Shown here piece after piece: positions 28,701 through 63,097 of a DNA stretch of 64,000 nt. The stretch is from Apostichopus japonicus (taxonomy: Eukaryota; Echinodermata; Holothuroidea; Aspidochirotida; Stichopodidae). How positions within the stretch are numbered: the first letter of the stretch is position 1; every line of letters begins with the position of its first letter. The stretch spans positions 5,111,501 through 5,175,500 of the forward strand of contig NC_092581.1 of assembly GCF_037975245.1 (NCBI RefSeq), written 5' to 3'. Both the position numbers and the translations under genes were made by a program. Below the pieces are notes generated by a model. The model searched no databases. It had not been told where the DNA came from and was given only the letters and a program-made list of their open reading frames with translations.

Positions 28701-31700
28701 ATGGGTAGCAGAAGTGAAAGATAAAACACTGACTCTTGCTAAGAACTTTGAACTATGTACCACTTGCCACCACACTGATACATCAGCTTAAAGTATTCTC
28801 TTGCTTTTTTTGCAATTTAGTCTCAACATGTGCTTAATAATTAAAAATCTGGTAGTTTCTATGCAAATGCCAACACTTAACCTCCTCCTAACACATCTTT
28901 ATATAATCATGCTTGACCACATCGCCATATAAAAGACTACGCTAAGTAGTAGTTGAGTTTCAGCTGTTTGCACCTTGATAATCGACTTACCCAAGTATCC
29001 ATTTTGTTTGTAGAAAGAATCGACCCAGTTATTCTGCGTTTTAGAAAATATCTCTGGGACGTAAGAAGCTTTGTCTTGACGGCCACCGATGATGTCACCG
29101 TTCAAGCGACCAGAGTTGACAAGCTTTTCTAAGACACCTTTAAACAAAGAAAAATGTAACAAAAGCTAGAGGGAGTTAACATAATACAAACTGAGTGTGC
29201 TATATTCAGATACACATTTTGTGCAAATAAAAAAGCATTGGAAATTTACATCTGACTTACTCTATAAACTTCCTTCGAAGATGCTACCACAAAAATTAAG
29301 AGTTCTTTAACATTAAGGAAATAACAGAACTGGAACTTGAAGGTCTGGCTAACCATTAGTATTGGTCAAACTACTGTTAAGAAATATAAAAATATTACTT
29401 ACTGTAAAAGAGTTTTTCAGGGAATTTGTACTTGTTCAAGATACTTTGTACAGATGTTGGCCTGTATTAAAACAAGAGAAAAGGGTGATAAAAGCAACTC
29501 TGTCATGCACATCAACTACTGGGAGGGCAAATGTAAAAGTTACCATCATGTTTGCCATGAAAATTTACCTTCCCTTTTGGACATGCTACTTGAAACCACA
29601 ATACCTGCCCGTCGATCTCTGTGTTGATTGGGGAGACAGGCCTTATGGTAAATGGTGGTAAACTTGTTAGTCCAGCCACTCTTTCTGATGTGCCATAACC
29701 TTTCATATGGTTTTTTCCCAACTTTGAGGGTGAGGGAAGTAATATATACTCTTATGAGGGGTACTTATGGTAAAGGTGGTAAACTTGATAGTCCAGTCAC
29801 TCTCTCTGATGTGCCATAACCTTTCGTATGGTTTTTCCCAAGAACACTGAGGGGTGAGGTAAGGGTAGTAATACATACTCTGATGAGGGGTACTTATGGT
29901 AAAGGTGGTAAACTGGATAGTCCAGCCGCTCTCTCTAATGTGCCATAACCATAACCTTTCATATACCTTTTATATAACAACACTGAGGGGTGGGTGAGGG
30001 TAGTAATACATACTCTGATGAGGGGTACTTATGGTAAAGGTGGTAAACTTGATATTCCAGCCGCTCTCTCTAATGTGCCATAACCATAACCTTTCATATA
30101 CCTTTTATATAACAACACTGAGGGGTGGGTGAGGGTAGTAATACATACTCTGATGAGGGGTACTTATGGTAAAGGTGGTAAACTTGATATTCCAGCCGCT
30201 CTCTCTAATGTGCCATAACCATAACCTTTCATATACCTTTTATATAACAACACTGAGGGGTGGGTGAGGGTAGTAATACATACTCTGATGAGGGGTACTT
30301 ATGGTAAAGGTGGTAAACTTGATAGTCCAGCCACTCTCTCTAATGTGCCATAACCATAACCTTTCATATACCTTTTATATAACAACACTGAGGGGTGGGT
30401 GAGGGTAGTAATACATACTCTGATGAGGGGTACTTATGGTAAAGGTGGTAAACTTGATAGTCTAGCCACTCTCTCTAATGTGCCATAACCATAACCTTTC
30501 ATATACCTTTTATATAACAACACTGAGGGGTGGGTGAGGGTAGTAATACATACTATGATGAGGGGTACTTATGGTAAAGGTGGTAAACTTGAAAGTCCAG
30601 CCACTCTCTCTGATGTGCCATCACCTTTCATATGGGTTTTCCCAAGAACATTGAGGGGTGGGGTGAGGGTAGTTATACATACTCTGACGAGGGATCTACT
30701 TTAAATACTCTTACCTAGTGATAACACTGAAGACACCTTTGACCTTTGAGGGGTGAGGGTAGTAATACATACTCTGATGAGGGATCTACTTTAATAGTCT
30801 TACCTAGTGATAACACTGAAGACACCTTTGACCTTTGAGGGGTGAGGGTAGTAATACATACTCTGATGAGGGATCTACTTTAATAGTCTTACCTAGTTAT
30901 AGCACTGAAGACACCTATGACCTTTGAGGGGTGAGGGTAGTAACACATACTCTGATGAGGGATCTACTTTAATAGTCTTACCTAGTGATAACACTGAAGA
31001 CACCTTTGACCTTTGAGGGGTGAGGGTAGTAACACATACTCTGATGAGGGATCTACTTTAAATACTCTTACCTAGTGATAACACTGAAGACACCTTTGAC
31101 CTTTGAGGGGTGAGGGTAGTAATACATACTCTGATGAGGGATCTACTTTAATAGTCTTACATAGTTATAGCACTGAAGACACCTTTGACCTTTGAGGGGT
31201 GAGGGTAGTAACACATACTCTGATGAGGGATCTACTTTAATAGTCTTACCTAGTTATAGCACTGAAGACACCTCTGACCTTTGCTGTATTCCTCTCGACA
31301 AAGGCCTGGGTGAAGATGACGTCCCTGTCGTATGGATCGATCTCCCCATTGATTAACCGACCAATACGTGATTCAATAGCCTGCCAAGGGAATATATAGA
31401 ATATATGAATACAGGGTCTGTATCTATCTATAAAGATGTAACTACTGTTTGAAATGTATTAGTACAGAAATATCCAATGGAAATTACAAGGAATAACTTA
31501 TAACTTCAAGTGTTTGAAGGCTCCGAATATCGTCTGTTATTAAAAAATATATATAAGAAAAAAACTTAGTATAAATTGGGTTTTACATCTCGCATAGCAG
31601 TTTGTTTGAGATTTTTATGACTTATTAATCATTTAATTTTTACCCCAGTTTCAGTAAAGGAAGTTCTGCTGTTAAGACCATGAGAAGTCAAAGAGTGAGT

Positions 31701-34700
31701 CAAAGAAATCGAGTCATTAAAACACTCACCTCTGATAAAAAGTCGGCAGGAAGATCGAGCGACTGGGTAAGTGCTGGAATAGTAACTTGGCCGTTCTCTT
31801 GAAGCTGTTCGTTTATTTCTTCGGCCAGATGATCCAGGTAAGAACTGACAAGGAATGAATTGACAGAGAAAGTCAAACAGGGAAGATGGCAGTCAGGGAG
31901 TGGGGTGGGGGTTAGGGGGAGAGACAAACGTCCAATAAAATTAGAAATTCTTTGCCAAAAGTATTTACTTACTCGTCTATAAGCTGTCCTAACACTAACG
32001 AAACGGACTGGTCGGACCTGACGATCTCGGCAGCCTTGGTTTCGATTTGGGAGAGCTCGATCCCAATGGTCTGGGCAAAAGAGAGTAAAAAAAAAAAGCA
32101 AATTTAAGAACAATTGCAATAAATTGATGAGAACAAGTTTAGTCAAAGCTTGATTAATCACTGTTAGGCTAGCGCTGGCTATGACAGTGCTAGTTACTTC
32201 AAAAGGTTTTAAGGTAATATAATAAGGAGTCAAGGACAATATTGAAATTAATAATAAATATCCTTGTGTGCATTCTGACAACACTGATTCTACAGAAGAG
32301 TTCAAACAGCATATATATTTATAATCAAAATATATATATCTAATATACCAGTGGTTAGGGTGTCCGCATATAAAGCAGGCAGCCCGGGTTCGAATCCTGG
32401 AAGTTTTTTCACTGTTCTGGATTTTCCAACTCACTACAATTTACAACTATCAGTTCTACAAACATATGTAATCCCTTCTTTGCTGCTTAATCCGCTTCCT
32501 GTATAGTCATGGTTTATTTGGTTCTAATTCCTTCAATGCAACTTACACTTATCTAGCGTCATACTTTCATTGTGTTTTTCATTTGTTCTTTTCATTCAAC
32601 TGCCAAGTATTGCTGAGGAAGGTCCCAGGGGTACCGAAAATTCCAATATATTTTCTAAAACATTACTCCTTATTTGTCAATTATGAGTCATATCTTATTT
32701 CTCTGGTTTTCTGTAATAATATATATACTGTTTGCATTTATAAACAGTTAGTCTTGACTCAAATCATACATGTACTACTACTAACATACATGTTTTCTGT
32801 TGTCTGCTTGGTACAGAACAGAGTTCGTTTCTGACAGAGCACACAAAATTATGCACCCAATTTATCAAACGCTATGTAAAACAATTCAACATGTATCACT
32901 TAGAGTAATTATTCTTGAATTAACTCCCAATGGTACCAATTGCAAATTTGTACTGTATGTTTTTGTAACATTCGATCCGTTCAGATAATTCATATATCTT
33001 GGTCTACATGTACCATTGCATATAAATGAAATAAATTTTGTCAAACAAAACCCTACATAAATCACATCAGCTTGGTGGCTATTGTAACATTATGAGTTGC
33101 ATCTGGAGCTAAGAGATGTCCAATGGCTCAACCTGATTTGAGAGATACAGGTGGAAAAATTGTAACTAAAATTGAAATTTGTTATCATTTGATCCACTTA
33201 CTTGTTGAAGATCTACCAAGTTTACTCTTCCTGTTGAGAAAATTCCAAATAAAAATGTTTTAACACGTAGTAAATTAGCACTTATTTCTTTCCTAGGTTA
33301 AAAGAAAATGGTAAAGCTCGAGAAAGTCAATTCAGAAAAAAAACATTTTGGTGAAAACATCTGGTGTGGTTGCTTGAGTTTCAAAGTATCATAGAGAGGA
33401 AAAGAAGCAGTTATCCTGAGAATCTAAGTCAACCCAGTTTTACTGTATGCCATATGTCCATTATAATACAACTTCTAGACTAACAGTATTTGATAGCAGG
33501 CTTGGGGCGATTACATCTGAATGTAATCGATTACGATTACTTGAGAATGTATGATTACGATTACGATTACGATTACGATTACAGCCTAAAGTTGAAGTAA
33601 TCGATTACAATTACGATTACATTGTAATGTAATCGTGATTACAATCATGATTACATTGTGGTTACTTGCACAATCCTCTGCATATCTGTTTAATATAACT
33701 CTCTGCCGGGAAATAGGGCAATGAAATAGGGCAAAGGAAGGGCATTTACAGTATATACGGACAAAATTGTGGAAGTATATCTACAATTCCTACCAGGCAT
33801 TACACATTTATGCCTTAACACGTTTAAGATGTGTAACCCATAAGTCCAGTAAAAAATACAATTTAAACAGACAAAGAGTAAACAGACAAATACTAAAGTA
33901 AAACAAATGAAGATTTTCATGCAACACTATATTTTGTAAACTAATAATTTCTGCATAGCAGCAAAACTAAAAACTCTTTTACATTATAACACCAAAATAA
34001 AACTAAACAGCTTTGAAATAGGGCATTCCACAGTACATGGGACATGGAAGGCCAAAGTAAAAGTAAATTATTTTCATCAAAAAATGGTCAACTCTGGTAA
34101 AGCAAATTCTGATTCACCAAAATACTTAATTTGCAGTGATTTTTTTTTTAACAGAATAATTCAGGTGATAAAAATCCTTGAATATGGCGATCAAATCCCC
34201 AGTAATTTACGTTTATTGTGCTAGAGAATTCTAGAAGCAGGAACACTTCTTTGGTCACACTAAAAGCCAATAGTAAGAATTAGTTTTAATCATTTCTACT
34301 AATTTTGCCGTTCTCATTCAAATTTCACTGTAATCATAAATGTAATACGATTACGATTACTTTGCCCTTGTAATCGATTACGATTACTTTGTAATTTTCA
34401 CAAAAGTAATCGATTACGATTACGACTACTTCAAAAAATGTAATCGATTGTAATCGATTACGATTACTGATTACGATTACCCCAAGCCTGTTTGATAGTA
34501 AAGGATATAAATTTAAGATGAAATCAGAAATATTCAAACAGTCATTATTTGAGACACCTGATCTCCCCAATGACAAAGACTCATATACAGTTGGGAAGCT
34601 TTTCAACATTCAAGATAGTATGTCAGTAACTTCAGAAGTTTACTAATATTGAACAAGTTACTGGTAACATTGTTTTTTCTTCCACATTATATACTGAAGC

Positions 34701-60941: not shown

Positions 60942-62909
60942 ATGGATCTTCTGAAAAGGAACTCTTTCCAACTCTTGCTGAATGTCATGATGGTGACTTT
61001 GGTAACTTGTGATCGCAGCATCGTCACTGGTCCGGACAACACGACCATATCGCTTGGTGATTCCGTCACCTTTTTTTGTACCGTTTCATCAGATGTGGAC
61101 CACGATACAATCGTTGCTTGGAAGCAAAACGATCGGGTAATTACTGAAGATTACAACGTAGGCAATCAAGTCGACGGTGCAAGGTATTCCTTGACGAGTG
61201 GGGTTGTCGGGCAAGAGTATAACCTACACATCACATCGGTTAATACCCTCGACGCTGGTATGTACACCTGTGCTATCCAATCACTTTTAAATCCCACCGA
61301 AACAATTGAATCTTCTGCCACCGTATGGCTTTCTTACAAAAGTGCCCCAAGTAAAGACTTTCCAAAATGTTCTCCATCAGAAGAAATGACCTTCAACGTT
61401 GGGGAACAGGTGAGTTTTTCATGTCGTTCTGAACTTGCTGTTCCCCCCGTACAGTTATCTTGGCTGAGTGATGGAGGAGAGGAACTGGGTGCGGTAGAAT
61501 CGACTCAAGGAACACTTTTAGTGTCCGAGTTTACCAAAATATTAACCAAAGAAGATAACGGAAAGACATTTGAATGTGATCTTAGCCATGAATTACTCAC
61601 CAACGATCGTTCGTGTGTTGTCGGTCAGTTGAATGTACAATACCCACCTACTATCATTACCCTTTCGTCAAATGTTGAGGAGGAGAGCTTAGAAATAGGC
61701 AGCACGGTAACTATAACATGTGAAGCAGACGCCAATCCACCTTCCAGGATTAGTTGGACGAATTCAACTGATATACCTCAAAGTAAAATTGTAAATGAAA
61801 ACTTTTTGATCATTAGTGACGTTACACAATCCCTTAACGGAAAAGTCATAGAATGCTCTGCTAAGAACGACTTGGGCGAAGCTACTAGTTCGTTCACTCT
61901 GAACGTCAATCAACCGTCAACAAAAGCTGCTACCCCAAAGCCCTCATCGACAACTACCGATTCAACTTCACGTGCCACAACATCTACACCCTCTGTATCG
62001 ACGAAGAAAATCCTGACCACACTCAAAAGAACCTTAGGATCTTTCAAGCCTCCTGCCTTACCAGGCACTAAGTACACGACCCAAGAACCCAACTTATCCC
62101 TAGATAATATTCTTGGAGTAGAGAGGAACTTTTTGATAGCTCTGTTGATCGGAGCATTTTTCGTATTATTGTGTTTTATTTTGCTATTGGTGTTGGTATT
62201 TGGCAGGAAACGTGCAAAGACCATTGTGTATGTGAACAGTGAAGATAACCTTCGCAAATTGTCCTTGTCAGCAGCCTCTGGAAACAAGATCCTCGTCCAC
62301 ACCCCTCTCATGGACCGTCGCAATAGAACCGGAAGTGATAATCCTTCTGACGACCAAAGTTTTGATTCGGCCATACACTTGCTCTCACCGGTCACCCCAG
62401 GTGATCAGCCGGATTATCGAGGTCACATGATCAACAGAAGCAGATCCAATATCTCAGCGTCTTCAAGTCAAGCGAGTGGAACGGGTTACATGCGAGTCCC
62501 ATCGACCGAATTGCTGATCAACACGCAATCACAACAAAGAGTTCAACAACCTCGATATGTAGTCCTTGACATGGTGAACCAGAATGGCGTTCCATTCCCA
62601 AGTGCTGATCCAGGACAGGTTAATTACGCATCTGCGACGACGGATAGACCGAAGGAACGTAAAGTGGATCGAAAAGGGCCTGGTTTTGAAACCATTCCTC
62701 TGAGAGGTGTACGACGAGACCAAGGGCAAGAATTGTATGTATTGCAAGGGACACAGTACATTCCGGTCCAAAAGGTCATGGATGAACCATCTCCTTCGAG
62801 CAACTCCAATGTGAAAATTCTCATAGGAGGGAGTGATAACAGCAGTGAGGAAGAATTAAACATACAAGAGGGCAGGTCATTACTAAATCCGGGACACCGT
62901 CCTGTCTGA
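60942..62909 (+). CDS. Three-Ig-domain transmembrane receptor with two TxYxxV motifs, paralogue 2 (655 residues)
   Basis: Single coding exon; start ATG 60942 gives signal peptide 1-23 (MDLLKRNSFQLLLNVMMVTL). The frame opens upstream at 60906, but only from a TTG, so that start is not used. Ig1 24-131 (C46, W60, DAGMYTC with C110), Ig2 140-232 (C161, W174, C212, outer pair C143/C225), Ig3 234-323 (C260, W272, C305). Then a Ser/Thr/Pro-rich stalk 324-390, transmembrane helix about 397-420 and a 234-residue tail. The tail carries TGYMRV (T514-V519) and TQYIPV (T604-V609), both fitting the immunoreceptor tyrosine-based switch motif TxYxxV/I. It also has IVYVNS at Y430, a YxN Grb2-type site, and YVVL at Y539. 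Domain plan, outer Ig2 cysteines and the juxtamembrane segment match paralogue 1. Switch motifs recruit SAP/SHP-type SH2 proteins in vertebrates; a similar role here is an inference. Confidence 0.9.
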   Translation: MDLLKRNSFQLLLNVMMVTLVTCDRSIVTGPDNTTISLGDSVTFFCTVSSDVDHDTIVAWKQNDRVITEDYNVGNQVDGARYSLTSGVVGQEYNLHITSVNTLDAGMYTCAIQSLLNPTETIESSATVWLSYKSAPSKDFPKCSPSEEMTFNVGEQVSFSCRSELAVPPVQLSWLSDGGEELGAVESTQGTLLVSEFTKILTKEDNGKTFECDLSHELLTNDRSCVVGQLNVQYPPTIITLSSNVEEESLEIGSTVTITCEADANPPSRISWTNSTDIPQSKIVNENFLIISDVTQSLNGKVIECSAKNDLGEATSSFTLNVNQPSTKAATPKPSSTTTDSTSRATTSTPSVSTKKILTTLKRTLGSFKPPALPGTKYTTQEPNLSLDNILGVERNFLIALLIGAFFVLLCFILLLVLVFGRKRAKTIVYVNSEDNLRKLSLSAASGNKILVHTPLMDRRNRTGSDNPSDDQSFDSAIHLLSPVTPGDQPDYRGHMINRSRSNISASSSQASGTGYMRVPSTELLINTQSQQRVQQPRYVVLDMVNQNGVPFPSADPGQVNYASATTDRPKERKVDRKGPGFETIPLRGVRRDQGQELYVLQGTQYIPVQKVMDEPSPSSNSNVKILIGGSDNSSEEELNIQEGRSLLNPGHRPV

Positions 62910-63091: not shown

Positions 63092-63097
63092 AATAAA
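63092..63097 (+). promoter_or_regulatory. Polyadenylation signal AATAAA, Ig receptor 2
   Basis: AATAAA 183 bases past the stop codon, the first canonical hexamer downstream. Confidence 0.6.

Follow-up and report, generated by a model that had tools for sequence, protein, structure and literature searches.

The window analysed here comprised 64,000 nt of the Apostichopus japonicus genome (C21:5111501-5175500). On its forward strand, the single-exon gene P0001 (60942-62909, stop codon included) was predicted from its open reading frame, Pfam matches and hydropathy to encode a type I membrane receptor of 655 aa. The frame has an in-frame stop codon upstream, starts at the first ATG at 60942 and continues for 655 codons with no internal stop to the stop codon at 62907-62909. 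An AATAAA polyadenylation signal, found by consensus match only, follows on the same strand at 63092-63097. Residues 1-23 (60942-61010), as judged by eye, correspond to a putative signal peptide. The first Ig domain (D1, residues 27-131, 61020-61334) was assigned as V-like from Pfam V-set and I-set matches, alignment and fold, and contains only two Cys residues, C46 and C110. The second (D2, residues 136-232, 61347-61637) was C2-set_2-like by Pfam, alignment, an AlphaFold model and its Cys pattern; the canonical C161/C212 are accompanied by C143/C225, presumed to pair and present family-wide. The third (D3, residues 235-322, 61644-61907) matched Ig_3 at 235-309 and Ig_2 at 239-322. A Ser/Thr/Pro-rich stalk (residues 323-396, 61908-62129) leads to the only hydrophobic helix, at residues 397-421 approximately (62130-62204) with the hydropathy peak at 401-419, and then to a predicted cytoplasmic tail of 234 aa (residues 422-655, 62205-62906) that contains seven Tyr and ends in GHRPV.

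Four Pfam models (Ig_3, I-set, ig and Ig_2) each returned three Ig stretches in P0001, all above the gathering scores, and V-set and C2-set_2 additionally matched D1 and D2, respectively. A neighbouring single-exon paralog, P0002 (54684-56615, forward strand), encodes 643 aa with three Ig domains and a membrane helix by Pfam and hydropathy, and shares 27% identity with P0001 over the aligned part; no ITIM or ITSM was found in its tail. NCBIfam searches of P0001 and P0002 gave no match, nor did an Rfam search of the window at gathering scores. Elsewhere in the window, an ORF on the reverse strand (31700-32434) included an exon of UFL1, the E3 ligase for UFM1 (PF09743, 4.3e-10).

The tail of P0001 carries four short tyrosine motifs. 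These are YVN at Y430 (62229-62237), which is of the Grb2-type YxN class and not enriched in the family; TGYMRV (62481-62498; T514/Y516/V519), the first match to the ITSM consensus; YVVL at Y539 (62556-62567); and TQYIPV (62751-62768; T604/Y606/V609), the second ITSM match. The three Ig domains and the membrane helix of the original prediction were recovered by Pfam and hydropathy, and the tail sites that it named (TGYMRV, TQYIPV, YxN and YxxL) were all confirmed by motif count, at the residues it gave. At the motif level, two TxYxx[VI] sites place the tail with those of ITSM-bearing receptors, and strict ITIM sites ([IVLS]xYxx[ILV]) were absent from it. Based on 20000 shuffles of the 234-residue tail, the two TxYxx[VI] sites compare with 0.042 expected (P 0.0009), a result that was unchanged with the Tyr positions fixed. 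For the wider class [SIVLT]xYxx[ILV], the two observed compare with 0.49 in the shuffles and were not significant (P 0.08). The values for Yxx[LIV] were three against 1.36 (P 0.14), and for YxN one against 0.48 (P 0.40). The claim that two such motifs are unlikely to be trivial therefore survived for the exact motif and not for the wider class, and the motif had been picked after the sequence was seen. With this post hoc choice, multiplication by the 29 family tails raises P 0.0009 to approximately 0.03, which is weaker still given the choice among motif classes. None of the other tails read had two ITSM matches, and the P0001 pair is without a counterpart in them. Taken on its own, the motif excess in P0001 is no more than suggestive.

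To place P0001 in context, the genome (671,581,487 bases in 35 contigs) was searched with three members as queries at E <= 0.001, and all counts are lower bounds. At least 40 matched places were found (31, followed by six new and three new). One gene on C12 accounts for two of these through separate exons, which leaves at least 39 loci. These loci are mostly single-frame, and at least 13 are on C21, where six members (P0002 at 5166289, P0001, L015, L011, L046 and L007) share a strand over a stretch of some 95 kb. Uninterrupted frames with a membrane helix and tail were read for 35 of the 39, made up of 30 distinct members plus L017, L022, L023, L025 and L026, which are near copies of either L016 or L018. 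Among these, the frames of L019 and L021 begin within D1, making a further exon possible, and L052 has two Ig domains. The other four are the C5 copies L027 and L028, each with a stop codon; L015, in which a D1 half lies upstream in another frame, apparently indicating an intron; and the multi-exon gene on C12.

An alignment of 17 members had eleven invariant columns, including the four Cys of D2. The pattern C-x(10-34)-C-x(35-75)-C-x(8-22)-C was matched strictly by 27 of the 30 members and by eye in L019 and L063, and was absent from L020. P0001 shares both family features, with a single frame running from ectodomain to tail and with C143, C161, C212 and C225 in D2. In the AlphaFold model, the extra Cys pair is located in the first (model residues 120-122) and last (201-205) strands of D2, and the pair probably staples these strands, A and G, together. 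A second disulfide in D2 is known from the CTX/CAR and CD2/SLAM families. In an ectodomain tree of 31 rows, only three of the 28 inner branches were well supported and 17 were drawn open; branches were long and the bootstrap had not settled. P0001 was unplaced in this tree, and the intron-containing gene on C12 did not appear as the parent. The idea that members share an intron in the 5'-UTR, with its end immediately upstream of the ATG, was considered and rejected, since the CAG seen near the ATG of P0001 and P0002 is not general among the 30 members.

The C12 relative (24.5127-24.5205 Mb; L053, L054 and L056) contains at least three D1-type stretches, a D2 that also has the extra Cys pair, a D3 and a membrane helix. 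Its probable tail exon carries YEDP, not ITIM-like sites. Very short tails of 6 and 16 residues were seen in L014/L062 (C21:2.294 Mb) and L061 (C11:3.354 Mb), respectively, and L014 also has a very long Thr/Ser-rich stalk. These short-tailed members are possible non-signalling partners.

For the family-wide motif analysis, 29 distinct tails were used, being the 30 read minus L020, the tail of which has 47 Tyr. Counts were compared with 2000 shuffles and with a reversed-motif control. ITIM and ITSM together gave 25 sites against a shuffled mean of 9.54, a number reached in none of the 2000 shuffles, and the reversed motifs gave one. Strict ITIM accounted for 20 of these, in 12 of the 29 tails (7.74 shuffled, 0/2000, reversed 0), and ITSM for five (1.15 shuffled, 8/2000, reversed 0). 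The three ITSM matches outside P0001 were TAYHDI (L064, also labelled L034), TIYAEI (L030) and TAYAVI (L046). The broader Yxx[LIV] was found 52 times against 28.5 (0/2000, reversed 13). A corresponding enrichment of YxN was rejected (12 observed, 10.5 expected, 735 of 2000 shuffles reaching the count, reversed 11), indicating that the motif excess is not a general effect of Tyr. No ITAM-like site was present in the 29 tails. Including L020 gave 26 forward and one reversed ITIM/ITSM site in 30 tails, and removing both L020 and P0001 gave 23 and one in 28 tails; the excess therefore holds without P0001. At least one ITIM or ITSM was present in only 13 of the 29 tails.

As a further control, the N-terminal part of an earlier 26-member set that included L020 was examined through the membrane helix. 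There, ITIM plus ITSM gave 22 forward and 23 reversed matches, and Yxx[LIV] 60 forward and 83 reversed, showing no forward bias in the ectodomains. Around the tail Tyr (L020 excluded), Leu, Ile or Val occupied position +3 in 29% and -1 in 24% of cases, compared with 8-19% at the other offsets and a background of 15% over 26 tails. Yxx[LIV] sites were also enriched over background in Ala at +1 (4.7-fold) and Glu at +2 (2.9-fold); in YMRV, YVVL and YIPV of P0001 the family's usual Ala at +1 is missing. Only one of the 52 Yxx[LIV] sites lay within 30 residues of the membrane, compared with 21 of all 183 tail Tyr. The joint preference at -2 and +3 was modest (Fisher P 0.026). The members are related by descent and the motif counts overstate their independence, but the end branches are long (median 1.94 changes per column) and the reversed-motif control is equally related.

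These results move the emphasis from P0001 to its family; neither P0002 nor the genome-wide family figured in the original prediction. The proposal of a deuterostome Ig receptor whose tyrosine motifs exceed chance was borne out at the family level (25 sites against 9.5 shuffled), with a SHP-2-type partner gene in the genome. The focus on switch motifs was too narrow, as 20 of the 25 family motifs are ITIM-like and the P0001 pair stands alone among the tails read. The family, and not the two motifs of P0001, is the interesting unit.

Located beyond the window, 41 kb downstream of P0001 in the C21:5215471 region, L046 combines VKYAEL, an ITIM, with TAYAVI, an ITSM, their Tyr lying 25 residues apart, and its tail also has YANS. 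A Tyr spacing of 25 residues is the arrangement found in PD-1. By its motifs, L046 is a better candidate for a switch-motif receptor than P0001.

A recent tandem cluster was found at C5:3.988-4.023 Mb (L018, L022, L023 and L025-L028), with two copies interrupted by stop codons. Over the ten pairs of the five intact copies, ectodomain dS was 0.04-0.09 and dN 0.03-0.05. Pooled pN/pS was 0.60 for D1, 0.54 for D2-D3 and 0.43 for the membrane helix plus tail; for the short stalk it was 1.01, on few changes (28 summed over pairs). The substitution pattern points to constraint on the domains and tail of these copies, with none seen on the stalk. By pN/pS, the five intact copies gave no sign of positive selection at this resolution, including in D1. 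All five tail Tyr were retained in four of the five, and L022 lacks the last three residues, including one Tyr.

In searches with the SH2 and PTP families, a pair of SH2 exons lay on one strand with PTP exons at C11:15.540-15.577 Mb, and together these presumably form one gene. PTPN11 was the better match both for the second SH2 exon (8.9e-30, compared with 3.5e-19 for the highest-ranking PTPN6 chain) and for the final catalytic exon (1.9e-17, compared with 2.3e-14 for SHP-1). Judged from these exon matches, a SHP-2-type gene exists in the A. japonicus genome. Many other SH2 matches occurred in 133-aa frames on C14, C4, C19, C9 and C20; the two that were read (L057 and L058) were near-identical, FES/FER-like by eye and beside a minisatellite. 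PTP exon matches were very numerous on C16 (14.5-20.3 Mb) and C2 (about 1-32 Mb); 150 of the 548 candidates were scored, and most of the rows fell on C2. This distribution suggests a large tyrosine-phosphatase expansion on C2 and C16.

The ectodomain of P0001 was compared with known receptors by sequence and fold, with SYG-2, SYG-1, Roughest, nectins and CADM4/Necl-4 ranking high. SIRP and nectin-like proteins were among the highest full-length fold matches. For SIRP alpha and gamma, the fold alignments had 16-18% identity and antibody rows had equal Z, so SIRP is not singled out. Among the Kirrel/SYG/Roughest/nephrin (IRM) proteins, which gave some of the best sequence matches (SYG-2 at 4.7e-15 for P0001 and Roughest at 2.8e-11 for P0002), P0001 is set apart by its three Ig domains, lack of introns and ITSM sites. 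The V-led three-Ig ectodomain of nectins and CADM proteins is also found in P0001, which differs from nectins, Necl/CADM and the poliovirus receptor in the extra D2 Cys pair, the single exon, the TxYxxV sites and an HRPV C-terminus. Nectin and CADM proteins carry a C-terminal PDZ-binding motif, and GHRPV is not such an end. The ectodomain has nectin-like, SIRP and Kirrel proteins as its relatives, in a V-led three-Ig arrangement.

PD-1, the SLAM family and Siglecs share TxYxx[VI] in the tail with P0001, and all three have an unlike ectodomain architecture. The SLAM family has two Ig domains, a V domain without the canonical disulfide and then a C2 domain; PD-1 and the CD28 family have a single V domain; and Siglecs have extra Cys in D1 that form intersheet and interdomain disulfides. 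Membership of each was ruled out by domain number and Cys pattern: P0001 has three Ig domains, excluding SLAM and PD-1/CD28, and no Cys besides C46 and C110 occurs in its D1 (residues 27-131), excluding SLAM and Siglecs. The paralog L046, with VKYAEL and TAYAVI, has the PD-1 spacing.

The suggestion that the receptor lies outside known families was not upheld, as the ectodomain is of the nectin-like, SIRP and Kirrel sort and intronless echinoderm Ig receptors are already known (KirrelL, PMC8903837). KirrelL is an Ig-domain transmembrane protein that is intronless in all echinoderms its authors examined, is expressed in skeletogenic cells and is required for their fusion, with an origin by retroposition raised by the authors (PMC8903837). 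It is like P0001 in being an echinoderm Ig-domain transmembrane protein with an intronless coding region, and by its description it is the closest published intronless relative. It differs in that its known role is skeletogenic cell fusion, and a term search of the main text did not find 'tyrosine' (PMC8903837). The amphioxus receptor BbLcLRR has ITIM or ITIM-like tail sites, is phosphorylated by Lck and binds SHIP1, and less so SHP1/2, in human T cells (PMC8211107). This invertebrate deuterostome receptor gives a precedent for ITIM-type signalling outside vertebrates; it differs from P0001 in its leucine-rich-repeat ectodomain, and its ITSM match, TRYLRV, is in the predicted ectodomain (PMC8211107). 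Among the literature matches listed, in a search with subscription papers largely outside it, no description of an echinoderm Ig family with ITIM/ITSM tails was found. A term search of the Holothuria glaberrima genome preprint text returned no 'immunoglobulin', 'Ig-like', 'intronless' or 'single-exon' (PMC13228809).

The explanation we favour, and hold to be about evenly balanced between true and false, is that P0001 is a cell-recognition receptor that signals through SHP-2-type SH2 proteins. It belongs to an old, mostly single-frame IgSF family with at least 39 loci. Its three Ig domains would recognise either a soluble ligand or a partner carried by another cell, and receptor clustering would allow a Src-type kinase to phosphorylate the tail Tyr. 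The resulting pYxx(L/I/V) sites, for which P0001 offers TGYMRV, TQYIPV and Y539 as a third, would then act as docking sites for SH2 proteins. The likeliest of these is the SHP-2-type phosphatase, and it would dampen or re-route signalling. The anatomy, the family, the directional motif enrichment across it and the SHP-2-type gene are observed; phosphorylation, SHP-2 binding by the P0001 tail, the sign of the signal, the ligand and the cell type are inferred. An immune role of P0001 is only a possibility. This explanation is favoured by the motif excess, the pN/pS of 0.43 for the membrane helix plus tail of the C5 copies, the SIRP and nectin-like fold matches and the SHP-2-type gene. Counting against it are the wider-class P of 0.08 and the lack of +1 Ala in P0001, the ITIM/ITSM-free tail of P0002, the restriction of motifs to 13 of 29 tails, the modest -2/+3 linkage and the loss of the last tail Tyr in L022. 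ITIM-like tails are also found in vertebrate adhesion receptors without a dedicated immune role, and this too counts against it.

Other explanations were also weighed. P0001 may instead serve adhesion in development or within tissues, in the manner of KirrelL. Its adhesion, whether homophilic or heterophilic, would link cells of mesenchyme, neural or epithelial type, and its tail Tyr would act on the cytoskeleton, with no immune role. This we consider rather unlikely. The high ranking of SYG-2, SYG-1, Roughest, nectins and CADM4/Necl-4 by sequence and fold, and the YEDP of the C12 relative in place of ITIM-like sites, both agree with it, as does the intronless, Ig-domain transmembrane KirrelL needed for skeletogenic cell fusion (PMC8903837). 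However, expansion that is both clustered and dispersed, with recent duplication on C5 and C11, would be more typical of recognition families, and the GHRPV end departs from the PDZ-binding end of nectins and CADMs. A somewhat stronger, still doubtful, alternative is that the TxYxx[VI] pair of P0001 arose by chance or represents sorting signals (YxxPhi endocytic motifs), with other members signalling through ITIM-like sites. The wider-class result, the after-the-fact selection of the motif and the lack of counterparts in other tails favour this, whereas the exact-motif P of 0.0009 and the excess across the whole family do not, and 51 of 52 family Yxx[LIV] sites are more than 30 residues from the membrane, unlike typical endocytic motifs. 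Finally, the two TxYxx[VI] sites and the second Cys pair of D2, a feature of the CD2/SLAM and CTX families, would suit a SLAM-type receptor using a SAP/EAT-2-like adaptor on its ITSMs. With three Ig domains instead of two, a canonical Cys pair in D1, and SAP and EAT-2 to our knowledge confined to vertebrates, this is highly improbable.

Beyond the preferred cell-recognition reading of P0001, a wider proposal is put forward tentatively, as conceivable and short of probable. Dozens of germline single-exon Ig receptors with diverse ectodomains and shared ITIM/ITSM-type SHP-2 docking tails, P0001 and L046 among them, would form an echinoderm-specific multigene family of inhibitory receptors, with the short-tailed L014 and L061 as possible pairs and an origin from a Kirrel/nectin-like adhesion gene. 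If true, echinoderms would have a family comparable to the KIR, LILR, Siglec and PD-1 systems, and KirrelL, the known fusion protein, might prove to belong to a far bigger set of receptors. In vertebrates, inhibitory Ig receptors signalling via ITIM/ITSM and SHP phosphatases are well documented. Should a large Ig family of echinoderms share this tail logic, a point that coelomocytes from a farmed animal make testable, control of recognition cells by receptor and phosphatase would either be older than the vertebrates or have two separate origins.
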